DNA of 64,000 bases from a virus. The DNA is taken from IMG/VR virus record IMGVR_UViG_3300037155_000072, positions 1-64,000 of that record. One strand, written 5' to 3'. A model generated the notes under the pieces. It was not told the origin of the DNA, did no database searches, and worked only from the letters and a program-made list of their open reading frames with translations. Both the position numbers and the translations under genes were made by a program. Below, piece after piece: positions 18,758 through 64,000 of the stretch; positions within the stretch are counted from its first letter, which is position 1, and each line of letters opens with the position of its first letter.

Positions 18758-18786
18758 AAACTACCTGAGTTGCCGGAATATGTCAA
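18758..18786 (-). promoter_or_regulatory. Strong leaderless-type promoter of the moron-like gene
   Basis: Minus strand: TTGACA (18781-18786), exactly 17 bp, TAGTTT (18758-18763), 6 bases, ATG at 18751. A consensus -35, ideal spacing and a start codon where transcription should begin. Confidence 0.75.
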
Positions 18787-18817
18787 CCCCAATCTTACGA
18801 TTTCAGGAATCCTAATA

Positions 18818-21800
18818 ATGCCTAACGACGTTCCTAATGTGCCGATTTCGACGCCCCCAGCGCCCGCTCCGGACATTACCCAGGGCATGTTTTCTGCCGC
18901 CCAGCTCCAGGCACCCCTCCCCGAGACGCCCGCCCCCGCCGCGCCGGTAAAATATACCCCGACGGCCCAGGAACTCGCCTCGGCCGCTCCGGTTGCCCCG
19001 GCCGCGCCCGTGAAGTATTCTCCGACTGCCGCAGAGCTCTCCAGCGCCACTCCGGTTGCCCCGCCCAGCGCCCTCGAAGTGATGACGCCGGAGCAACTCG
19101 TTGCTGAGGCAAAAGCAAACCCCAAAAAATTTGACCCAATCTCCGCATTCCAGGCGTTGCCAGCCCAGAAGCAGACCGAGCTTTTCGATAAGGCCGCTGA
19201 GACATATTACCAGCTTCTACAGGCCGGGCACTTCACGCCAAGCCTGGTGGACATGCTTACGAACGTAGGAAAAGGAATTAAGGACCTTGCGTTGACTGGC
19301 GCGACTCTCGCAAATATCGGTTTGGGTGCTGCGGTATCAGCCGGAGCAGAACCGGACCCTTCCACTTTTCGCGGTGCTCTCTCTTTACAGACTCAACAGC
19401 AATCCGGAGAATTCCTGGCGGGCCAAAAGGTTGCGGCGCTCGGGATTGGGCAGATGCTCACCAAGGGAGCAGCTTGGGCTGCACGCGGGCTGCACCTTAC
19501 TAAGGGCCTTCAGGACTACACTCCGGAGGATAAGTGGAACGCTTTTGCGACGGAGCTTGCGACGCGAAACGGAATGGCCAACGTCGTGAAGCAGGGCATC
19601 AGCCCAGAAGCCGCTGCGAACCTCGCGAAACAAGGATACCCACTTCGCCCGGAAAAAGTGGAAGAAGCCGCCTCCGGCTCGCCCTTTGCCTGGGAATTTG
19701 CGGGAAAGCTTTTCGGTGGTGCTACCGGAATGGTCGCGGACTCCGCCACTCCCCTACTCGCGACGCTCGCGGGAGATACATCTGAAGCGGGCCTTGCGAG
19801 TGCCCGGGCGGCAATTCATTCTATTCCCTCGATTGCGTCCGAAGCCTCGACAAAAGTCGTGGGCGGAGCACTCAAAGCTGCCGGGAAAGCGGGCGAATTT
19901 ACGGCAGAGAAAATCGAACCTCTCGTTACGCCCATCGCGAAAGTGGCGGGTATGGCAGGCGGTGCTTTTGCAGGTCATCACATCGGCGGACCCTGGACTA
20001 TTCCGTTGGGTATCGCGGAAGGTCTGGAAAAGGGCGGAAAGCTCGGGGAGAAAATTTCGACGGGCGTAGCGAAGGCGGGTGGGAAGCTGGCCGACCTAGC
20101 GGACATGGGAAAACAGATTGCAACCGGCGAAGGCGTGTCATCCAACACCGCGCAGTTCGTTAGAGACGTAGCACAGGCCGCACCGGGTGCCCTGGCGCAC
20201 GTAGGCGCAGGTGTGGCGATGGACGTAGGTCTCGGGGCAGCAACCACCGAAACACCCGGTGAACGCGCCAACATTACCCCGTTCGGGACAGTTCTCGGCG
20301 GTGTCGGTGCCGCGAAAGGCGTTGCGGGTCGGGCGATTAGCGGCCACATTATCGCGCCTCGGGCTTGGGGAAGTGAGGGAGTCCCACAACGTCCGGATAC
20401 CTTTACGCAGAATTTTCCCGCGCTCAACGCGGAGCATACAGACGCCATGGCGAATGCTCCTGTTGGAGTGCAGCAACGCTTCAACGCGGTTCAGAAGTTT
20501 GTGGACGGCGCTGCCCCGGGCACCCAGATAGTTTATGCGCCGAGGCCGGAAGTCGGACACGAGGACACGTTGCCCGCCGCGCTTCAGCAGTCGGGAATAA
20601 ACCCGAAATTCGCGGCCCGGGATGGCTTTTCAACCAAGGTGCAAGGCACCGATGGCAAAACCCACAATATTGTTGTAGTTCGTGATATGGAAGCCGCGCC
20701 ACACGAGGCTCGGCACGCGATGGACGACGTTATAGGAGCTGGAGCGACCGCCGATTTAAATGCCACCGCGAAGCAAGAATTCGCTGACAAGTGGGATGCG
20801 TTTAAACAAAGGTATGCGGACCGGCTCACGCCCACCGGACTTCCGACCTCAGACCCGAACGGGACAATCCTACGAGAGTCCGGATACGGAGACGCAGCCG
20901 CAAAAGAGAAAATTATCTCACAAGCGCGAGACGCGTTAGGCCCTAATGCTACCGAAGCGCAGGTGCATGCCGAAGCGGGGAAAGCAATTACCGACTTACG
21001 GGGGCAGGCGCAAGCTGCCGGACAGGAATTGTGGCAGCACGTGCTCACTCCTGACGAGCAGTCGAATCAGGTGGACCAATATGTAGGCAGCGAAGTCCGC
21101 GCGGAGCATCACGATGCTTGGTTCAAGGCCGGGCAGCCCGGCACGATGCGGGGCAAGATGGGAATGTTGGGCGGCCGCGTGTTATCGGCGCTCGGGATTA
21201 ACCCCGTCGAAGGCCGTTCCTCTACCTATGGCACGCCGCTCGAAGGCTCTCTCGTTTCCCAGGCACAAAAGACTGCGCCTAAAGGGGTGATGGCTCCCGA
21301 GGCACCTGCCCCGGAAGGCAGTGACGCCGCCCATCAGAAAGGTGTAGTGAACGCCCAGAAGGCCGCCGCCGAAGCCTCGGGGCAACCCGTCGCGGGAGCG
21401 GTCAAATCCCAAAAGGAAGTTCTCGGAATTGTGGCCGAAGCAATCGCGCGCAAGCAAGGCGTTAAGCTGACCAAGCTCTCCGCCCCCGAAGAGCCCGCCG
21501 CTTCTCTGACCTCCGACCGCGAGACCCGCAGGCAGATGATTGAGACATATCGCACGATGCCCGATGCGGCGAAAAAGCTTTGGGGCAAACTCTTTTTCCC
21601 GACTGATGTCCCGGTGCCGGGGCGCGGGGGGAATCTACAAATTTTCGGTTATAGCCCCGAAGTATTCGCCGCCAACGCGCACAAGACTGCCGAGGCAATG
21701 AACACCCTCGCCGACAAAGGCTCGAACCTTTCGCCCTACGAATTGGACCCGGCGACAAAATCATTCACGGAGTCAGGCTGGCGGGAGCTCTACGACGACG

Positions 21801-24800
21801 TTCAAAAATATGTTCAGAACCAAGCGGCCGGGCGAACCGGTTCGGGGACTCCTCTCTCAGTCCCGGCGGCAGTCACGGCTGCTGGTGGGCATGCGCCGCC
21901 GTTACGGGGAGAAGCTGCGCCGCTGACCCAGGACCGCGCGGATTTTATCAGCGCAATGTTTCACGCGAAACTGCCCGATACCGGGATTGCTCGCCAGGGG
22001 GCAATCAACATGCCTCTGAACAAGGCGGGGCAGTTGGTCAGTGCCGCCACAATTCCGGGCCGCGTTGCGCCGCCGGTTGAACCTCGTGGATCTTTTCGCG
22101 GAGCGGTAGCGGTTCGCCAAGGAGTCAAGGGCGAGCCGATTATGGAAGTAAACCCCTTCCGTAATAAATTCGAGTCCGCGTTGAAACAGGCGGGCGTCGA
22201 GAAGCCCTCCCTGATTGAGGCCAATCAACGTCTTAATCTCAAGGATTTGAAGGACGCGGAGCTCGCCCCAGAACAGGGAAAATTCGGCGCAAACTCACTC
22301 GCGTTGCAGGCCGGTTTTCAACCGCGACAACTCATCAATCCCGAAATCGAATCCCGATTGAAGGACAGCAAAGTCCGATTCGAGGACGGAACTCTCAAAC
22401 CCGTTTTCCACTCGACCGTTTTCCAATTTCCCACGAAGGAGATTAGGACCGAAGGATTTCAAGCGCACTTCGGAACCCCAGACCAAGCCGCTGCCCGGTC
22501 TATCGGACCTACAGGCAACCGCAACGCTTCGGCTCTGCAATCTGCCACAGGGGCTCGAACCATACCAGCGTTTCTCGACATGAAAAACCCACTACGAGTG
22601 GATGATGTTGGAAATTGGGCCAACGCGCAAGATGTCGCGACGGGGCTGGAGAAGGCGGGAGTGTCTCTACCAAAAGAATTGTCGAGCCGAATGATTAACG
22701 CGGCCGTCGAGACCGCGCAGGATAAGTTGCCCAGCACACAGAGCAATCAGGATGAGGAGGATTCCTGGGGCCAAGCGAATCAGGCGGTAAACTCTAGGCT
22801 GCAAAACCATCTCCGGGGGAAAGGTTACGACGGGATTGTTTACGCAAACCACTACGAGGACTCCGCCCCGAAGCTGAACTATGGCGGCCGTCAAGAAGAA
22901 CACACATACCGGGGTCAGGAGGAATACAACCCGAGTCTTTACCCGGATAGCTTCATCCCCTTTGACGCAAAGCAGATTCACAACGCCGTTGACACGAAAG
23001 TCCAGTATCAACCATCCGCGCCGAAGAACGCGCACGAGCTCACCGACTTCCTTGACAAGTCCAGCCCGGAGGAGTATAAAACGGCGGTGAACAGCTACAA
23101 AGGCAAATACGGCGGCGGCCAAACGGGCATGAGCTTCGACACTGGCGCACAGGTTTCCACGGCTGATGAACTCGCCAAGCTCCACACCGCACATCAGAAG
23201 TTCCAGCAGATGAGCCGGGACGCGATGGCGCACAAGGATTTCAATACCGCCATGGACATGGCTAGCCGCTCTCAGGCCGCCCGCGAAGCTTACGAAGCCG
23301 CAGAGAATGGCCCTTCGGCCGCGTTCATCCGGGACCACTACGACAAGAATTTTCAGGGCAGCCCATTGCATAAGGGGACCTCGCTGAATTCGGAGCATGT
23401 GAACTTCATGCCGAAGGGCGACCCGCGCGCGATTCGTGCAGCCGCAGTTCAGGACGCAGACAACGGTAAGATTTTCGAGGGGCCGATGCACTTCTACGCG
23501 CATAGCCAAATGATTGCGGCCGGATACAACCACAATGATTTGTTTCGGCACCCCCAGGGGTTCGTCACCAACACGCCGGGAGAATTCTTAGACCGTCAGC
23601 AGGCGTTTAAACGGGCAGAAGAGTTGAACCAACTCAAGGGGTATAAAGAGGGGGACCCGGACATCATGCACCCAACGGGAGGGTTAGCTGCCGACAATTT
23701 GGGCCTAGTTGCGGAACATACGCAGATGCAGCCTCCAAAAAAAGACAAAGAAATCGAGCTGACGCACTACTCGCACACCCCTGGTATCAAGATTCTAGAC
23801 CCCGCTTTTCACGGCACCGGTTTATCTGGGGATGAACGCGCGCGCCAGCGGGACTACCCGGAAATTTATCATCCTCGAACTTATTTCGGCACCAAGGACT
23901 ACAACAAGGAGCCGAACCTGGGGAACGAACAATACCGTGCGATGGTTCAATCCAAAAAGCTGTATCCGTTCCAGGAAGACCCCAAGGACTTATTCCCAGG
24001 TCCGCAGCAAGTGGAAGACGCTGGCTACGCCCCGATGGACAGCAAAGCGGCAAACACGCTCTATGAGCACAAAATATCGCAGGCCGGTTACGAGGGATAT
24101 ATCCACCGCGACTCCGCCGTCGCCGCGAAGTTCACGAAGACCCCGGTTGAACAAACCGGCGGCGCTAATTTTCAACCGCCAAAACTACCCGCTCCCGCCC
24201 CAGAAGAATTCGCGCACGAGGACACAATCGGCACCGCACTCGCGAAGCCGAATTGGGCAATCCTAACCGGCACTCAGGAAGCCCTGGGACCCGCAACCAA
24301 CGAAGCCAACGCTGCGAACAACGAGCGGCTCTACCGTGCGCTGGCCAAAGCGGGCCACACTCCGATTGAAGTCTCAGGTTCTTATAAAGGCGTAGACCAG
24401 GGACGCAATTTTTTGGTAACTGGGATGTCCCCCGAGGAGGCCCGCGATTGGGGCAAAGAATACAAACAGGATTCGGTGCTGACTCCGCACGGGTTACTCT
24501 ATTCGGACGGCAGCATTCAACCGCCGGACGCGTCCCTAACGAAAATCGGCAAGGCGGCCGAGAAGGAAGATTTTTACTCCAAAGTAGACAAAGGCCCCGC
24601 CTTTTCGATGGGATTCGACAAGCGGGAGATGCCAGCCGCAGGCGAGAGCATGCTCGGCGATTTAGGCGCATCGAAGACGCCACTGTCGAGCAAGCAAGTC
24701 GGGGACATGACAAAGAACCAGCTCGCGGCGCATTACCCCGAGTCTGTTATTCCAAAAGCCAAGGATGATGAGATTCATTCCGACATCGTAAACTCGCCCC

Positions 24801-25753
24801 TGGCAAAAGAAGCCGGTAGCCGAGAGAACGCAGTAAAAGTGTTCGGAAAAAAGCTTGCTGAAATGGGGCGCGCCCTGGAGAAGTCCAGCGGGTATCAATC
24901 CGGGCTGAAGTGGTATTCTGAATTCGTGCCGAAGCTGAAAAAGGTCTACGGAAAGCACGCGCAGATGATGGGGGAACTTCTTGCGGCCACGAGTCCAAAC
25001 AATAACCCAACGACGAATTTTGGATTTGCGAACGACGCAATGGAGGGGTTCATCTCGGGGCGGTTCGACAAACAGCTCAAGAAATTCAAAGAGGGCTGGA
25101 ACAAAGTTGAAGATGGGTCCTGGAAAAAATGGCTTGATAAAGAGCTAAAAGCTGGGAATGTCAATAATCCTCCGGAGACTCCCTCGGATGCTACCTTCCT
25201 GGACCACTGGATTACCAAGCACGACTTGAATCCCAGGCAGAGCAACGGCGCACTCTACTCGATGCACTCGGTCGCGGTGCTGAAAGTTTTGGCAAGGCAA
25301 TGGCTGGAGCAAACCCCGGGGCCGAAGACTCAAAACTTCGTAAAGAACTTATTGGGCACCGGCCATGAGGCTACAATCGACGTGTGGGCGGACCGGACAA
25401 TGCGCCGACTCGGCTACGCGGACCACCAAGCGCGGTGGAGAATTCTGCCAAAGAACGGCACCGGAGTTTCGGATGCGGACTTCGCGTTTTCGCAAGAAGC
25501 GTTTCGGCATGCGGCCGACGAGTTGGGCGTGAAGCCTGACGCGTTGCAAGGCGGACTGTGGTTCGCTGAAAAACAGAAGTGGGCTGACGAGGGTTGGGGC
25601 CGACTGGATTTGGGCGATTATCGAAAAGAGCTCGCCAAGGTGGAGATGTTGAACGCCGGAATTACCCAACGGCTAGCGATTCAAAAAGCCAAAGCAAAAG
25701 CGGTGCAAATGGAGCAACCCGATTTGATGTCCCTAGTCACCCCACGACCATGA
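18818..25753 (+). CDS. Giant polyvalent virion protein with ART-like and zincin-like domains
   Basis: About 2,311 residues from the ATG at 18818 (an in-frame TTG at 18770 overlaps the neighbouring promoter). N-terminal Pro/Ala repeats with two PVKYxPTA units are followed by glycine-rich hydrophobic stretches near residues 310-460 that could be membrane-active. HEARH at about 629-633 is a zincin-type HExxH motif. Two regions look like ADP-ribosyltransferase-type polyvalent domains: one beginning KPVFHSTVFQFPTKE (about 1190) and one beginning LTHYSHTPGIKILDP (about 1648) and ending in GYEGYIHRDSAVAAKF. The C-terminal 350 residues resemble large-polyvalent-protein-associated regions (HEATIDVWADRTMRRLGYA). 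Probably ejected into the host with the DNA. All domain calls come from motif reading. Confidence 0.65.
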   Translation: MPNDVPNVPISTPPAPAPDITQGMFSAAQLQAPLPETPAPAAPVKYTPTAQELASAAPVAPAAPVKYSPTAAELSSATPVAPPSALEVMTPEQLVAEAKANPKKFDPISAFQALPAQKQTELFDKAAETYYQLLQAGHFTPSLVDMLTNVGKGIKDLALTGATLANIGLGAAVSAGAEPDPSTFRGALSLQTQQQSGEFLAGQKVAALGIGQMLTKGAAWAARGLHLTKGLQDYTPEDKWNAFATELATRNGMANVVKQGISPEAAANLAKQGYPLRPEKVEEAASGSPFAWEFAGKLFGGATGMVADSATPLLATLAGDTSEAGLASARAAIHSIPSIASEASTKVVGGALKAAGKAGEFTAEKIEPLVTPIAKVAGMAGGAFAGHHIGGPWTIPLGIAEGLEKGGKLGEKISTGVAKAGGKLADLADMGKQIATGEGVSSNTAQFVRDVAQAAPGALAHVGAGVAMDVGLGAATTETPGERANITPFGTVLGGVGAAKGVAGRAISGHIIAPRAWGSEGVPQRPDTFTQNFPALNAEHTDAMANAPVGVQQRFNAVQKFVDGAAPGTQIVYAPRPEVGHEDTLPAALQQSGINPKFAARDGFSTKVQGTDGKTHNIVVVRDMEAAPHEARHAMDDVIGAGATADLNATAKQEFADKWDAFKQRYADRLTPTGLPTSDPNGTILRESGYGDAAAKEKIISQARDALGPNATEAQVHAEAGKAITDLRGQAQAAGQELWQHVLTPDEQSNQVDQYVGSEVRAEHHDAWFKAGQPGTMRGKMGMLGGRVLSALGINPVEGRSSTYGTPLEGSLVSQAQKTAPKGVMAPEAPAPEGSDAAHQKGVVNAQKAAAEASGQPVAGAVKSQKEVLGIVAEAIARKQGVKLTKLSAPEEPAASLTSDRETRRQMIETYRTMPDAAKKLWGKLFFPTDVPVPGRGGNLQIFGYSPEVFAANAHKTAEAMNTLADKGSNLSPYELDPATKSFTESGWRELYDDVQKYVQNQAAGRTGSGTPLSVPAAVTAAGGHAPPLRGEAAPLTQDRADFISAMFHAKLPDTGIARQGAINMPLNKAGQLVSAATIPGRVAPPVEPRGSFRGAVAVRQGVKGEPIMEVNPFRNKFESALKQAGVEKPSLIEANQRLNLKDLKDAELAPEQGKFGANSLALQAGFQPRQLINPEIESRLKDSKVRFEDGTLKPVFHSTVFQFPTKEIRTEGFQAHFGTPDQAAARSIGPTGNRNASALQSATGARTIPAFLDMKNPLRVDDVGNWANAQDVATGLEKAGVSLPKELSSRMINAAVETAQDKLPSTQSNQDEEDSWGQANQAVNSRLQNHLRGKGYDGIVYANHYEDSAPKLNYGGRQEEHTYRGQEEYNPSLYPDSFIPFDAKQIHNAVDTKVQYQPSAPKNAHELTDFLDKSSPEEYKTAVNSYKGKYGGGQTGMSFDTGAQVSTADELAKLHTAHQKFQQMSRDAMAHKDFNTAMDMASRSQAAREAYEAAENGPSAAFIRDHYDKNFQGSPLHKGTSLNSEHVNFMPKGDPRAIRAAAVQDADNGKIFEGPMHFYAHSQMIAAGYNHNDLFRHPQGFVTNTPGEFLDRQQAFKRAEELNQLKGYKEGDPDIMHPTGGLAADNLGLVAEHTQMQPPKKDKEIELTHYSHTPGIKILDPAFHGTGLSGDERARQRDYPEIYHPRTYFGTKDYNKEPNLGNEQYRAMVQSKKLYPFQEDPKDLFPGPQQVEDAGYAPMDSKAANTLYEHKISQAGYEGYIHRDSAVAAKFTKTPVEQTGGANFQPPKLPAPAPEEFAHEDTIGTALAKPNWAILTGTQEALGPATNEANAANNERLYRALAKAGHTPIEVSGSYKGVDQGRNFLVTGMSPEEARDWGKEYKQDSVLTPHGLLYSDGSIQPPDASLTKIGKAAEKEDFYSKVDKGPAFSMGFDKREMPAAGESMLGDLGASKTPLSSKQVGDMTKNQLAAHYPESVIPKAKDDEIHSDIVNSPLAKEAGSRENAVKVFGKKLAEMGRALEKSSGYQSGLKWYSEFVPKLKKVYGKHAQMMGELLAATSPNNNPTTNFGFANDAMEGFISGRFDKQLKKFKEGWNKVEDGSWKKWLDKELKAGNVNNPPETPSDATFLDHWITKHDLNPRQSNGALYSMHSVAVLKVLARQWLEQTPGPKTQNFVKNLLGTGHEATIDVWADRTMRRLGYADHQARWRILPKNGTGVSDADFAFSQEAFRHAADELGVKPDALQGGLWFAEKQKWADEGWGRLDLGDYRKELAKVEMLNAGITQRLAIQKAKAKAVQMEQPDLMSLVTPRP

Positions 25754-54214: not shown

Positions 54215-55030
54215 ATGGTCGGTGAATCAGATTTGCAGACTCTACGAATGAAGGACGCTCAGCGCCGGGCCGAGGAGGCATTACGTGAATGCAACCGTGA
54301 CGTGCCCGTGGCGCGCGGCTACACCGAGGTGCCATTTGACCGAGAGCAGGCTTTTCTACTTTACGCATCCTTCAGTGGCGACATCACACGCACTGCACAC
54401 GCCCTCGGCACCTCGGCCGAGGTGGTGATAAAGATTGTCGAGGAGGGCGACTGGCATACTCGGCTCAAGGCTGTGCTGTTGCTTCGTGGGTGTGGCCGCC
54501 CCGGTGACGTAGAGCGCAGTATAAATCGAAGCGTGAATTTTGCCCAGGCCCATCGAGCCCGGCTTTTCCTTGAGCGCCTTATCACCAAGATATACCGGCT
54601 GACTGATGATGAGCTTCAGGAGTATTGCTTCATGACCGAGACCAAGACTCGTAAGGACAAGGTGACTGGCGAGGTTGAGGAGACAACCGAGAAGAAGATT
54701 TCAACCCGGCCGTTCGCAGACCTTGCGAGCGCAATCGAGAAGATACACAACCTCACCTATGTCGCCCTGGCGGACAGCGCCGCAGAGCGTAAGGGCAGAG
54801 CAGAGCGTGAGGCATCGGAGGACACCACACCCACCTTGGACATCCATGCGGCTATCAGCGCAGCGGTAGCGGCCGCCCAAGGCGACGGCGGGCCTCGTGC
54901 TCAACTCTTCGAGGGCCAGCTTGAGCAGGTCAAGAACCTTGCGGCCGAGCACGAGATAATCAAGGACCAGAAGCTGGCCGGGACTCGTGACGACCTGACT
55001 ATTCACCCACTCCACCCACTAGCAACATGA
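54215..55030 (+). CDS. Possible small terminase subunit
   Basis: 271 residues. An N-terminal helix-turn-helix (GDITRTAHALGTSAEVVIKIV, about 47-67), then a long helical middle (ARLFLERLITKIYRLTDDEL) and a C-terminal charged part. DNA-binding N-terminus plus oligomerising helices fits small terminases, which choose the packaging site. The large terminase, however, lies 8 kb downstream, so the assignment is tentative. Confidence 0.45.
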   Translation: MVGESDLQTLRMKDAQRRAEEALRECNRDVPVARGYTEVPFDREQAFLLYASFSGDITRTAHALGTSAEVVIKIVEEGDWHTRLKAVLLLRGCGRPGDVERSINRSVNFAQAHRARLFLERLITKIYRLTDDELQEYCFMTETKTRKDKVTGEVEETTEKKISTRPFADLASAIEKIHNLTYVALADSAAERKGRAEREASEDTTPTLDIHAAISAAVAAAQGDGGPRAQLFEGQLEQVKNLAAEHEIIKDQKLAGTRDDLTIHPLHPLAT

Positions 55031-58205: not shown

Positions 58206-58451
58206 ATGACTCTCTCGACTGCTGATTTAAATGGACTCAAGAAAGCGGCCAACCGAATGATTCAGGGCTCCGCCCTGGAGCTGCCCTTCGACGCCGACGT
58301 CGCGCAGATTCTCGGCCGCCACGCAACCGCTATCGGGTTCACCGACGGCGTTGGCACATTCGAGCAGGCTGTGAAACTCCGGCCCGTCTCCACGATGATT
58401 CTTTTCGTCGCCTTCGTTGGCGGCTCTGGCGCTGCGCTGCCACGGCCGTAA
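58206..58451 (+). CDS. Small protein related to the N-terminus of the DUF3494 protein
   Basis: 81 residues. The N-terminal part (LSTADLNGLKKAANRMIQGSALELPFDADVAQIL, in parts) parallels residues 5-45 of the next gene's product (ASDSARIQWVIDNLITGSAG), so it may be a stand-alone copy of that module. No other family recognised. Confidence 0.5.
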   Translation: MTLSTADLNGLKKAANRMIQGSALELPFDADVAQILGRHATAIGFTDGVGTFEQAVKLRPVSTMILFVAFVGGSGAALPRP

Positions 58452-58529: not shown

Positions 58530-59420
58530 ATGGCACTTGTTCTCTCGGCATCGGACTCGGCACGCATCCAGTGGGTTATCGACAACCTCATCACCGGAAG
58601 CGCGGGTAAATTCATCGACAGCACCTCAATCGAACAGCTCGCTCTCGTCTTCGGGCAGGAATGCGGTTTTCGATGTGGTTGCCCAGGCACTTTTCAAGAA
58701 GGCATGCGGGATACACCCTTCGCTACGCTTTTAACGGCGATGCTCTGCAAGAACATCACCCCAGCCCCTAACCCCATTGTTCCCGTCGTCCAGCTTCCGT
58801 GCGTGGACCTGTTGACCGCGAAGACCTATGCGATTTTGGCCAACACCGCAGTCACGAATACCGGCGCTTCGGTAATCAACGGGGACCTCGGCATCTCTGC
58901 GGGTAGCGCAGTGACCGGTTTCGATGTAATCGACGCAGGCCCGGGCCACGTGAACGGGGCTTACCATATCACCGACGCGGCGGCTGCACAGGCCAAGCTC
59001 GACTTGACGGCCGCGTATCTCCTCGCCCAGGGGCTCACCCCCTCGACTCTCATCGCCGCCGACATCGCGGGAATGACCATCACTCCTGGAAACTACTTCG
59101 CTTCTTCAAGCTTGCAGGCCAGCACCAGTGTCACGTTCGACGGTCAGAACAACCCGGCCGCGTGTTTCGTGTTCCAGATTGAATCGAGTTGGGAACTGAT
59201 GAGCGGCGCGTCTATCAACCTGATTAACGGTGCCCTGGCGTCCCGTATTTTCTTCAAGGTCGGCAGCTCCGCGACCCTAGACACTACGTCGTCAATGCAA
59301 GGAAATATCCTGGCGCTCACTTCTATCTCTGTGCTGACCGGCGCGCAGGTTCATGGCCGGTTGCTCGCGCGCAACGGCGCGGTGACATTACAAAGTAACA
59401 CAATTTCCATTCCTGCATGA
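58530..59420 (+). CDS. DUF3494 ice-binding-type domain protein
   Basis: 296 residues. Residues about 93-296 have the pattern of DUF3494 domains: TAKTYAILANTAVTNTG, INGDLGISAGSAVTGF, GPGHVNGAYH, AQAKLDLTAAYLLAQG, MTITPGNYFASSSL, CFVFQIESSWELMSGASINL, FFKVGSSATLDT, GNILALTSISVLTGAQVHGR, LLARNGAVTLQSNTI. Characterised members fold as beta-solenoids and bind ice crystals; others may be adhesins. No signal peptide is visible; instead an N-terminal 90-residue module, shared in part with the previous gene, probably fixes it to the particle. A GTAGTCACTTAG motif precedes the ATG. Confidence 0.85.
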   Translation: MALVLSASDSARIQWVIDNLITGSAGKFIDSTSIEQLALVFGQECGFRCGCPGTFQEGMRDTPFATLLTAMLCKNITPAPNPIVPVVQLPCVDLLTAKTYAILANTAVTNTGASVINGDLGISAGSAVTGFDVIDAGPGHVNGAYHITDAAAAQAKLDLTAAYLLAQGLTPSTLIAADIAGMTITPGNYFASSSLQASTSVTFDGQNNPAACFVFQIESSWELMSGASINLINGALASRIFFKVGSSATLDTTSSMQGNILALTSISVLTGAQVHGRLLARNGAVTLQSNTISIPA

Positions 59421-59866
59421 CAAAGAAATGCTCCAGGTGCGAGGTTGAAAAGTCCCTGGATGCGTTTTACAAACGTCCTGACCGCGCTAGGTGCAAAGAG
59501 TGTGAAGCGGAGATTCAACTCTTGAGCCATAGGGCGGACCCCAAAAAAGTAAACGCTAGAAATAAATCCTGGCGGGATAGGAACCCCACGGCGGTTCGGG
59601 CCATGAACTTGAGGAGTCATTTTGGGATTTCTTTGGAGAAGTATGAGGCCCTGTTGTCGGCACAGAACGGAGTGTGTGCCATTTGCGGGAGCCTCGACAC
59701 GAGTGGGAAGCCGTTGGCCGTTGACCGCGTTCACGGCTCCAATCCCACAATCATTCGTGGGTTGCTATGCCAGCAGTGTAATACAGCGATTGGGAGTTTA
59801 CGGGATTCCCCCAGTAACTGCGCGGCCGCCGAAGCATATATTCTGAAGTTTCATCCTAAACATTAG
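59417..59866 (+). CDS. Recombination endonuclease VII-like HNH nuclease 2
   Basis: 149 residues, ATGA overlap. N-terminal CSRC ... CKEC zinc pair, then CAICGS, PLAVDRVHGSNPTIIRGLLC and CNTAIGSLRDSP follow the endonuclease VII family. Related to the protein at 2026 (shared VDxxHGS and IRGLLCxxCN segments), so one may be a copy of the other. Likely a mobile or junction-cutting nuclease. Confidence 0.85.
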   Translation: MTKKCSRCEVEKSLDAFYKRPDRARCKECEAEIQLLSHRADPKKVNARNKSWRDRNPTAVRAMNLRSHFGISLEKYEALLSAQNGVCAICGSLDTSGKPLAVDRVHGSNPTIIRGLLCQQCNTAIGSLRDSPSNCAAAEAYILKFHPKH

Positions 59867-60103: not shown

Positions 60104-60823
60104 ATGAAACGAGCAATCGCATACATCCGCGTGTCCGGCCTCGGGCAGGCGGACAAGGACGGCGAATCCCGTCAATCAGAATCCATCCGCACCTTTTGCG
60201 TCACCAACGGGCTCCAGTATTGGGAGCAGCGGTTCGAGGTAATCTCGGGCACCGTCGAAGGGCTCGACAGGCCAGTCTTTTCGGAGGTGCTGGAGTTGAT
60301 TGCCAGTCAAGAAGATGCCCCGAACGTGGAGCACCTGGAGGCTCTTCAGAAAACCGACCGGCCGTGTATCGTGGTGGAGCGGATGGACCGATTTGCCCGC
60401 GATTTGATGGTCCAGGAACTCCTATTGCGCGAGTGTCGCGAGAGGGGTATCGAGGTTTACGCGGCCGACCAGCCGTTTATCGACATCGCCTCAGACCTGG
60501 GCGACCCTACCCGGAAGCTTTTTCGTCAGATTCTTGGGGCGCTCGCGGAGTGGGAAAAATCGGCCCTGGTGCTGAAACTCCGCAAGGCCCGCGACCGCAA
60601 GCGCGCGGAGACCGGCCGGTGCGAGGGGGTCCTTCCCTACCACCTCACGGCGGAGGGTATGGCGGTTATCAAGCGGATTGAAGCGGGCCGCGAATCAGGT
60701 GTAAGCGTTCCGGGGATTGCCCGGCGTTTAAACGAGTCGGGATTAACAACGCGAAACGGGAAGGGATGGACTAAGCGAGCCGTCCTTCGCGTTTGGCAAA
60801 AATGGAAAGGTGTTAGAACATGA
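60104..60823 (+). CDS. Serine recombinase (resolvase type)
   Basis: 239 residues. AIAYIRVSGLGQADKDGES starts a resolvase domain with catalytic Ser 11; VVERMDRFARDLMVQELLLR and FRQILGALAEWEKSALVLKL complete it. A C-terminal helix-turn-helix (SVPGIARRLNESGLTTRNGK) binds DNA. Size is that of small resolvases/invertases. It could resolve genome multimers, invert a segment or integrate the phage; no att site could be recognised here. Confidence 0.85.
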   Translation: MKRAIAYIRVSGLGQADKDGESRQSESIRTFCVTNGLQYWEQRFEVISGTVEGLDRPVFSEVLELIASQEDAPNVEHLEALQKTDRPCIVVERMDRFARDLMVQELLLRECRERGIEVYAADQPFIDIASDLGDPTRKLFRQILGALAEWEKSALVLKLRKARDRKRAETGRCEGVLPYHLTAEGMAVIKRIEAGRESGVSVPGIARRLNESGLTTRNGKGWTKRAVLRVWQKWKGVRT

Positions 60824-61261: not shown

Positions 61262-62650
61262 GTGGCCAGCAGCACATTTTTTAAACTCGACGTAGGCGCA
61301 CCCTTCACTTTGCCGGGCTTCCCGGCTAAGGAGGACGGCACTGCCGTAAACTACACCAAACTAGACGCCGTTCGCGCGAAAGATGAATTCGGCCGGGTGT
61401 GGAGCTTTTCGCCAGCCCTCGCCATTGGAGCCCAGGGCACCCAAGGACAGTCTCCAGCCGTTCCCGCTAGCACCGGAGGGGGAACCGGCACCGGCTCCGG
61501 CACCGGCTCCAGCACAGGCCCCCGAGGAGAGACGGGCGGGACGGGGGCATCCGGAGCAACCGGAGCAACCGGAGCAACCGGAGCAACCGGAGCAACCGGA
61601 GCAACCGGAGCAACGGGTCCCGGGGTAATCCCCGGAGGCCAAGCCGGGCAAGTGTTGTCGAAAATAGACGCGACAAACTTCAACACCCAGTGGTTGACTC
61701 TCCTTCCCCGGACGGGACCGCTTCAGAGAACTATTCCGGCATCAGTCGGAGACTATATCGAGCTCGGAAATTTTAACCGCTCAAATGGGAGCCACGCTTT
61801 GCGAATCTCCGTCTCCGTGTCTGACCCCGGGTATAGTGCTGCAAAGGAGTATCTCGTCATAGCTGACTACAATGCTACGGCGGGGTTTTGGCAAATCCTA
61901 GAACCTATTGCCGACACGGGACCTTTCGCCGGGTCAGATTTTGCAGTGGATATTAGAGTATCGAACACACAAGCCTTTCTTCGTATTCGAACAGTATCGG
62001 CTGGCGGCGCTGGCGGAATGGCCAACGTAATTTTGGAGGATGTGAGTTATCTGGCCGGTGGTGTTGAGGATTTATTTACCGTGCAAACGGGAACAGGGAC
62101 GGCGAGCCCCATACCCTCCGTGACTTACAATCCTGGTCCGTTAGTTCCTCCCGGAGGAACTACGGGACAAGTTCTTGCAAAGACAGACGGTGTAAATTTT
62201 CACACTCAGTGGAATACACCCGCCGCCGCACCCACCGTATATTTACTGTTCCGCGTGCTACCTGCCGCAGTGAACGACTTCATAGAAATCGGGAACCTTT
62301 TCCGAACCCACGGGGCACATAACTTCCGCCTGTCCGTAACGGTTTCCGACTCGGGCTACAGCCTTTCTAAGACCTTCATCGTAACCACGGCATACCACGT
62401 CGTTCCGACCGCTTGGCTGATTCTCACCCCAACATCCGACACGGGAAGCTTCTTTGGAAGTAATTTTGGTGTAGATATTCTAATCAACACAGCCACCACC
62501 TACCTGCGGTTACGCACCACGGCAGGCACAACCGCCAACGCCTACGTTGTGATTGAGGATGTCAGCTACCTAGCGGACGGCGGAGACCTCTTTACACCAA
62601 CCTCCGCGACAGGAACCGCCTCGCCGGTCCCCAGCGTGCCCTACCCCTAA
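61262..62650 (+). CDS. Collagen-like repeat fibre protein 3
   Basis: 462 residues, GTG start. N-terminal module (1-60: STFFKLDVGAPFTLPGFPAK, then GRVWSF) shared with the next gene. A Gly-X-Y region (about 80-120) consists of GTGSGTG runs and eight or so tandem GAT repeats, encoded by a near-perfect 9-base DNA repeat (ggagcaacc units near 61553-61615). The C-terminal part has two similar domains (YIELGNFNRSNGSHALRISV and FIEIGNLFRTHGAHNFRLSV), each ending in EDVSYLA. Probably a tail or head fibre with duplicated binding heads. Confidence 0.7.
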   Translation: MASSTFFKLDVGAPFTLPGFPAKEDGTAVNYTKLDAVRAKDEFGRVWSFSPALAIGAQGTQGQSPAVPASTGGGTGTGSGTGSSTGPRGETGGTGASGATGATGATGATGATGATGATGPGVIPGGQAGQVLSKIDATNFNTQWLTLLPRTGPLQRTIPASVGDYIELGNFNRSNGSHALRISVSVSDPGYSAAKEYLVIADYNATAGFWQILEPIADTGPFAGSDFAVDIRVSNTQAFLRIRTVSAGGAGGMANVILEDVSYLAGGVEDLFTVQTGTGTASPIPSVTYNPGPLVPPGGTTGQVLAKTDGVNFHTQWNTPAAAPTVYLLFRVLPAAVNDFIEIGNLFRTHGAHNFRLSVTVSDSGYSLSKTFIVTTAYHVVPTAWLILTPTSDTGSFFGSNFGVDILINTATTYLRLRTTAGTTANAYVVIEDVSYLADGGDLFTPTSATGTASPVPSVPYP

Positions 62651-62651
62651 A

Positions 62652-62837
62652 ATGGCCCAGCATGACACTTTTCTCCTGGTGCCGATAGGGAAGCAATTCA
62701 CGGTTGCCGACTGGCACGCGAACGCGGACGGAACTTCCATAATCCTGACCAAACTCACCTCGGACACCGCCAGCGACAGCACCGGCCGAGTGTGGAACTT
62801 CTTAGCCAGTCAAGGACTTAGGTGCTTCGAGCGGTGA
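62652..62837 (+). CDS. Truncated paralog of the fibre N-terminal module
   Basis: 61 residues (HDTFLLVPIGKQFTVADWHA, STGRVWNF) matching residues 1-55 of the preceding fibre protein position by position, but ending before any collagen part. It may be a spare anchor module or a remnant. The gap to the next gene contains a GGGGTAACTGCTTAG motif. Confidence 0.6.
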   Translation: MAQHDTFLLVPIGKQFTVADWHANADGTSIILTKLTSDTASDSTGRVWNFLASQGLRCFER

Positions 62838-62878: not shown

Positions 62879-63193
62879 ATGAACGTGTTCACCCACTACA
62901 GCGAGCCGCATGCGAAAAATCTTCGCCTGTGGATGCGTAGCTGGCAACAGAATGGCTACTGCCCGCAGCTAATATCCCGCCGAGAACTAGAATCCGCGAC
63001 TATCAAGAAAGTCATCCGCCAGCGCGGGGGCGGGATTCTGGTCCGACCGGGCGCGTTCAACCTCGGGCACAAGCGAGGAAAGCCAGTGTGCAAATCGTTC
63101 GGCGCTTGCGGATGGGAGACTGCCAAGGTCGTTATTTTTTCTCCGTCCATTGCGGAGGACCTTATTTTGGAGTGTTTAAACAATGCTCCGTGA
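62879..63193 (+). CDS. Hypothetical protein (104 aa)
   Basis: ATG 62879 (a GTG two codons earlier is possible). Starts VFTHYSEPHAKNLRLWMRSW, a pattern seen in other phage proteins with glycosyltransferase-like resemblance, but too short for a full enzyme. Overlaps the terminase gene by 11 bases. GTTTAAAC lies in its last codons. Confidence 0.55.
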   Translation: MNVFTHYSEPHAKNLRLWMRSWQQNGYCPQLISRRELESATIKKVIRQRGGGILVRPGAFNLGHKRGKPVCKSFGACGWETAKVVIFSPSIAEDLILECLNNAP

Positions 63194-64000
63194 CCCTTCA
63201 CTAAAGCCCATCGCCGTCAGCGTCGCGGCGAAGCTGCACAAGCGGCTTCACTACGACGCGGCCCAGGAGGTTGCCGACTTCTGTAAAATCTCCGTGAAGT
63301 TCAGCGCCAAGACCGCACCCGAAAAATATGAACCGCTACTCCAGAATTTCCTCCATACCTTGCTCGAAAGAGGAGGAATGGCCGAAGCAGCCCAGATGCT
63401 TTGGACGCCCAACCAATTCACCTCCGAGCCCCAGTCAGTTCAAGACGTTTGGGGACTGTTCGATACCTCCGATATGGGACTCATCATGGGAGCAGCCAAA
63501 ATGGGAAAGTCTTTTTCCATGGGAGCTCGCCTTTTCCTGGAGTGGATTCGAGACCCCGAATGGACTTCCATCCGAGTCCTAGGCCCAAGTGAAAACCACT
63601 TAGAGCAAAACTTATTCTCTCACATAGTAGCATTACACTCTCATGCAACTCTACCCATGCCCGGCTCTATTGGGGACCTGTTTATCGGTCTTGACCGTCG
63701 CGACCAGCTTTCATCTATTAGAGGGGTTGTTATCCCCAAAGGAACCTCGAAGAAAGCGGGCAAACTTCAGGGTTCACACCGTAGGCCGCGACCCAACCCC
63801 CATCCTCTCTTCGGCCCTCTGTCCCGGATGTTCCTTTTCATTGACGAAATCGAGAACGTCCCCAATGGTGTTTGGCTCGACGTTGATAACGTGCTCTCAG
63901 AAATCGAAGAGCAGCGAGTCGGACAATCAGACTTGGCGAACTCCGGATTTAAAATCTTCGGAGCTTATAACCCCACGAATGCCTCTGACGAAGTTGCAAA
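63183..64000 (+). CDS. Large terminase subunit, ATPase part (cut by window end)
   Basis: 272 complete codons visible from ATG 63183. Walker A MGAAKMGKSFS (GKS at 108-110), Walker B MFLFIDEIE (about 216-224, Asp 221/Glu 222), and a coupling motif GAYNPT (about 260-265) show the packaging motor ATPase; the nuclease domain lies beyond the window. The terminase drives DNA into the prohead through the portal, whose gene presumably follows to the right. Confidence 0.85.
   Translation, partial: MLRDPSLKPIAVSVAAKLHKRLHYDAAQEVADFCKISVKFSAKTAPEKYEPLLQNFLHTLLERGGMAEAAQMLWTPNQFTSEPQSVQDVWGLFDTSDMGLIMGAAKMGKSFSMGARLFLEWIRDPEWTSIRVLGPSENHLEQNLFSHIVALHSHATLPMPGSIGDLFIGLDRRDQLSSIRGVVIPKGTSKKAGKLQGSHRRPRPNPHPLFGPLSRMFLFIDEIENVPNGVWLDVDNVLSEIEEQRVGQSDLANSGFKIFGAYNPTNASDEVA

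Follow-up and report, generated by a model that had tools for sequence, protein, structure and literature searches.

The 296-residue protein encoded at 58530-59420 joins a small helical N-terminal module (the N-module) to a complete DUF3494 domain, and we consider it on balance likely to be a virion-displayed, two-part accessory protein whose DUF3494 domain holds the particle to a surface, most likely ice. The window analysed here is a stretch of 64,000 bases, comprising positions 1-64,000 of an IMG/VR virus contig of 74,866 bases. The original observation of an ice-binding-type domain in a phage gene was confirmed and its meaning became wider, as DUF3494 was found to recur across phages on several scaffolds. 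The features of the window that bear on this finding were as follows.

54215-55030, plus strand: conserved gene at the upstream edge of a cassette that varies among relatives, a small terminase candidate on positional grounds alone (homologues with 43-45% identity in the corresponding position of L143, L158, L154, L144, L153, L141 and L145)
58206-58451, plus strand: gene of 81 aa consisting of the N-module alone (BLAST match to the N-terminus of the following gene; relatives)
58530-59420, plus strand: two-module protein, N-module plus DUF3494, 296 aa (profile match, AlphaFold2 model, full-length homologue in L155)
58530-58754, plus strand: N-module, residues 1-75, four predicted helices at moderate confidence, the candidate virion-docking part (also in 58206-58451 and in L148, L155, L156, L143, L140, L144 and L084)
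58755-58802, plus strand: short linker, residues 76-91, mostly of low confidence
58803-59417, plus strand: DUF3494 beta-solenoid domain, residues 92-296 (PF11999 profile, solved-sequence matches, AlphaFold2 model, structure superposition)
59417-59866, plus strand: endonuclease VII-type gene that shares bases with the end of the DUF3494 frame (PF02945, E 5.8e-16)
60104-60823, plus strand: resolvase, lying between cassette and terminase in relatives (PF00239, E 6.7e-21; homologues in most terminase relatives)
61262-62650, plus strand: collagen-like fibre-type gene (weak tail-fibre PHROG matches, best 1.8e-7, due to Gly-X-Y repeats)
63183-64000, plus strand: first part of the gene for the terminase large subunit, a gene that runs on beyond the window to record base 65159

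The C-terminal part of the protein was found to hold a full DUF3494 domain, as had been predicted. Residues 102-292 matched PF11999 across profile positions 1-207 of 208 (E 4.1e-55; 187 bits against a curated cut-off of 28.7), and the domain was encountered at one place in the record and at none in 14 control genomes. The frame also matched 25 distinct solved ice-binding or antifreeze sequences, of which the best was EfcIBP (6eio; E 3.5e-45), with 45-48% identity to the window domain. In the AlphaFold2 model, block pLDDT was 94-99 from residue 91 on and about 52-79 over the four helices of residues ~1-75, falling below 50 at residues 75-84. The model matched 31 solved DUF3494 chains at E<=0.001 (7bwy, TM 0.96, rmsd 0.8; 6eio, TM 0.90) and possessed the discontinuous beta-solenoid and the bracing long helix (150-168) of the family. 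The original prediction had named a model lacking the flat solenoid as an outcome that would speak against it; instead, the solenoid fold was recovered.

We then considered what the solenoid might bind. The published ice-binding residues of AnpIBP (PMC7277481) were used to map the B-face by alignment, and 75% of its 24 outward positions in the window domain were A/G/S/T, compared with 71% in AnpIBP, 88% in EfcIBP, a phage mean of 86% and a cellular mean of 82% (rest of the domain, 43-50%). The strand equivalent to S153-T156 of AnpIBP was retained as SSAT. Because this composition, together with the SSAT strand, is typical of ice-binding members, an ice-type ligand is favored, and ice binding by the window protein is plausible. 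Counting against such a ligand, the outward residues of strand b3, on the face presumed to meet ice, include Glu and Met, and Ser predominates in column 2, a pattern tied to weaker activity (PMC12337378). Given the Ser-rich column and the Glu and Met within one strand, we expect modest recrystallisation inhibition rather than hyperactivity. Since DUF3494 is also found in substrate-binding and surface-adhesion proteins (PMC12337378), ice is the likeliest rather than a proven ligand.

Those adhesive family members, and the outward Glu and Met of strand b3, would also suit a virion adhesin or receptor-binding module for a host or environmental polysaccharide or other surface, in which the DUF3494 scaffold would have no meaningful ice activity. 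The same cassette place in relatives holds other fibre-like or repeat proteins, which points in that direction as well. However, the B-face is otherwise as in ice binders, EfcIBP is close at the identity given above, and the sheath-borne DUF3494 copies described below do not sit at the usual receptor-binding place, so that we regard an adhesin of this kind as possible but rather unlikely.

The lack of a signal peptide, noted in the original prediction, held at the annotated start, and the window protein thus differs from cellular type 1 ice-binding proteins, in which a secretion signal is usual. Signal calls were made by a simple hydrophobicity rule, which is crude, and the contrast between viral and cellular proteins was large. 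Signal-like starts were recorded in 2 of 60 viral DUF3494 frames with complete 5' ends and in 51 of 61 frames from genomes of bacteria and archaea, proportions that are not prevalences because the two sets were gathered with different alignments. On inspection, both signal-like viral starts were internal methionines near the domain.

This contrast bears on the published reading of such genes. In two polar studies, PF11999 or antifreeze genes of vOTUs are interpreted as host cryoprotection (PMC11515562; antifreeze gene, PMC8407431), and by analogy the window gene could be an auxiliary gene whose product is a cryoprotectant in or on the infected host. We hold this to be very unlikely here: the protein has no signal peptide though most cellular members have one, its fusion to a phage-specific module is retained in phage L155, and DUF3494 is fused to sheath and baseplate proteins elsewhere.

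Many proteins of the record had no family match in profile and family searches. The gene at 63183-65159 matched annotated terminase large subunits (best E 2e-4), from which the record is assigned to a tailed phage, and as a query it returned 32 related viral loci. The predicted sharing of an N-terminal module with the preceding gene proved to be real; the pairwise BLAST match was weak (24% over 66 aa, E 2e-4) and was reinforced by relatives, as L148/L149 matched the N-terminus of the DUF3494 protein at 46% (E 1e-18) and L156 matched both window genes (E 2e-10 and 3e-6). BLAST values are given because our locally built profiles contain the window's own sequences and so cannot give independent E-values for it.

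Among the terminase relatives, the place upstream of terminase was occupied by the N-module alone in L143, L144/L154/L158 and L156 (partial copy in L138) and by tandem N-modules in L147-L149, L140 and, weakly, L145. L155 carries a solo N-module gene followed by an N-module-DUF3494 gene, the order seen in the window, and the latter is 35% identical to the window's over 302 aa. In L084, a relative whose terminase, portal-like and resolvase genes are of the window-phage kind, the DUF3494 gene is on a different scaffold and adjoins a solo N-module gene. The N-module therefore keeps its position upstream of resolvase and terminase in relatives, adjoining the packaging genes. Because the module is kept alone, in tandem or fused, and because the DUF3494 of L084 is on another scaffold, the outer domain reads as exchangeable cargo on a two-module layout that is kept, by these sequence comparisons, across divergent phages.

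The N-module had no significant match of known function in any database searched (Pfam-type families, PHROG and solved structures among them), and the terminase and portal-like profiles likewise had no significant match among solved structures. Outside DUF3494, the window protein showed no homology to a known virion protein, whereas other phage DUF3494 proteins did (sheath and baseplate families).

Several further features of these loci were noted. At the same cassette position, L158 (4670-5989) encodes a protein of 440 aa that begins with helices, continues with a proline-rich linker and carries leucine-rich-type repeats, an arrangement matching that of the window protein but with another kind of solenoid. 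Its helical N-terminus was considered as an N-module and rejected, as the N-module profile gave no match and the likeness is in layout only. The DUF3494 frame is overlapped by the endonuclease VII-type gene in the window and by a GIY-YIG-like frame in L084 (11067-11627, by eye); homing nucleases adjoining DUF3494 frames might aid the spread of the cassette. A second gene pair with a common N-terminal module, of about 50 residues, lies at 61262-62650 and 62652-62837, in the order collagen-like fibre-type gene and then 61-aa gene, with the same pairing in L127. The window also encodes a polyvalent protein of 2327 aa (18770-25753) with DUF7178, DUF3293 and ART-PolyVal matches. At 15465-19726 of L002 (record about 70464-74725), downstream of terminase and portal-like genes, a run of frames resembles glycosyltransferases and sugar-nucleotide epimerases/dehydratases (by eye only).

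We sought DUF3494 in other viral contigs. The window protein as a single query returned zero relatives there, and an alignment of four phage domains returned 65 viral loci; in total, 70 distinct viral DUF3494 frames were collected, the window's included. Among 58 of these that were scanned, the recognisable partner domains were tail proteins. Sheath partners belonged to phrog_279 (10 members), phrog_2839 (1) and phrog_10581 (3), giving at least 14 sheath frames, and baseplate partners to phrog_6 (3) or Baseplate_J (4), giving at least 3 baseplate frames. The L098 sheath aligned at both ends (12-182 and 727-1293) with the sheath of Agrobacterium phage Atu_ph07, and its DUF3494 (264-447) lies in the divergent central region. 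The domain was not found in the closest cultured-phage sheaths, those of Atu_ph07 (closest to L098) and Mx1 (closest to L106).

In phrog_279-type sheaths DUF3494 was circularly permuted, with profile positions 35/47-195 first and 1-50 after. This arrangement was seen in about nine sheaths, L106 (residues 161-437), L121, L107, L108, L123, L102, L124, L111 and L101, and it would fit a joining of the adjacent natural ends with new ends opened for insertion. The predicted structure of the L106 sheath fusion had a mean pLDDT of 47 and was left out of the evidence. By eye, L005 has a DUF3494 frame flanked by the two ends of a protein; the gene immediately after encodes a paralogue of this protein that lacks DUF3494, and a terminase-like gene comes next. 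A gene for the major capsid protein (phrog_2522, E 4e-35) adjoins the L006 locus, and DUF3494 occurs at four distinct places of the L006 record (116,673 bases), in frames 305-1233 aa long. DUF3494 is absent or rare in a collection of 50,697 phage records, as tblastn with four DUF3494 queries gave zero matches. A paper lists Synechococcus phage S-SKS1 as carrying a homologue, but the phage was rejected, its 208,007-base record having no PF11999 match.

In a tree of 142 DUF3494 domains, 49 phage rows formed one group (SH-aLRT 99) that covers sheath, baseplate and fibre-type proteins. The window domain fell outside this group, and its nearest relatives by tree path were bacterial. Labels changed between phage and cellular 7 times, of which well-supported branches force only 1. 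This suggests a phage-specific DUF3494 subfamily together with separate acquisitions, and thus multiple origins of the phage copies. The bacterial neighbors could also be taken to mean that a bacterial ice-binding gene was joined to phage sequence by assembly, or that the gene is a decaying, functionless acquisition. This is hardly credible: the frame is intact, and the divergent phage L155 has the same two-module layout in the same place, which largely refutes an artefact.

Taken together, the complete fold, the missing signal and its viral-cellular contrast, the conserved and swappable N-module place and the sheath and baseplate fusions elsewhere argue for display on the virion, and these viruses probably carry an ice- or surface-binding domain on the particle exterior. 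The conserved helical N-module would dock on the virus particle, and the solenoid would be a swappable, outward-facing binding domain. With its flat B-face the solenoid may grip extended surfaces, of which ice and frozen pore surfaces are the likeliest, and this hold could keep, concentrate or protect virions there. Counting against display, the cassette also has non-structural genes (endonuclease, resolvase), some neighboring frames in L158 and L084 look secreted (by eye), and the N-module lacks a match of known function. The virion attachment originally suggested is well supported for the phenomenon in general, since other phages have DUF3494 within their tail sheath and baseplate proteins; for this protein we infer it from where the gene lies, from the swapping of modules and from the lack of a secretion signal.

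The window protein would then exemplify a broader tendency of uncultured tailed phages to incorporate DUF3494 into sheath, baseplate and fibre-type proteins. More tentatively, and with somewhat less than even confidence, we propose that the particles of a group of uncultured phages have become adapted to frozen or surface-rich environments through the display of ice-binding solenoids. These would be present in many copies on the contractile sheath (permuted versions included), as well as on baseplates and, in the window phage, on a docking module of their own, and would make up a DUF3494 subfamily that is specific to phages and passed among virion proteins. If this is true, viral PF11999 genes would be reread from host cryoprotection to particle display, and there would be a testable molecular trait behind the way virus particles persist, travel or gather at ice, whether in frozen soils or in other cold places. 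Sheath-borne antifreeze solenoids would be a natural high-copy display system, and the circular permutation in sheaths a clean example of a domain re-cut to fit its host protein.

In a literature search outside which most subscription papers and preprints lay, no paper was found joining DUF3494 to phage, or tail sheath to ice binding. The polar viral contigs are alike in bearing a DUF3494 or antifreeze gene on a virus contig, but the available portions of those studies (PMC11515562, PMC8407431) describe no virion fusions or sheath insertions, unlike here. Compared with type 1 ice-binding proteins (EfcIBP, 6eio; AnpIBP, 7bwx/7bwy; FfIBP, 4nu2), the window protein is alike in whole profile, fold and B-face composition; it differs in having no signal peptide, a phage-specific N-module and a place in a phage genome, and is a putative ice binder. 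Hyperionvirus DUF3494 proteins are virus-encoded too and were the only significant structure matches among predicted viral protein structures, but they belong to a giant virus of eukaryotes with no phage tail context. The tail sheaths of Atu_ph07 and Myxococcus phage Mx1 are homologous to the DUF3494-bearing sheaths L098 and L106, while themselves being without the domain. T4 Hoc and other Ig-domain phage decorations (PMC10385173) differ in their Ig-like domains and capsid-binding C-terminal domain, and a sequence relation is not expected; even so, the window protein would work in the same way, through a conserved docking part with exchangeable outer domains.
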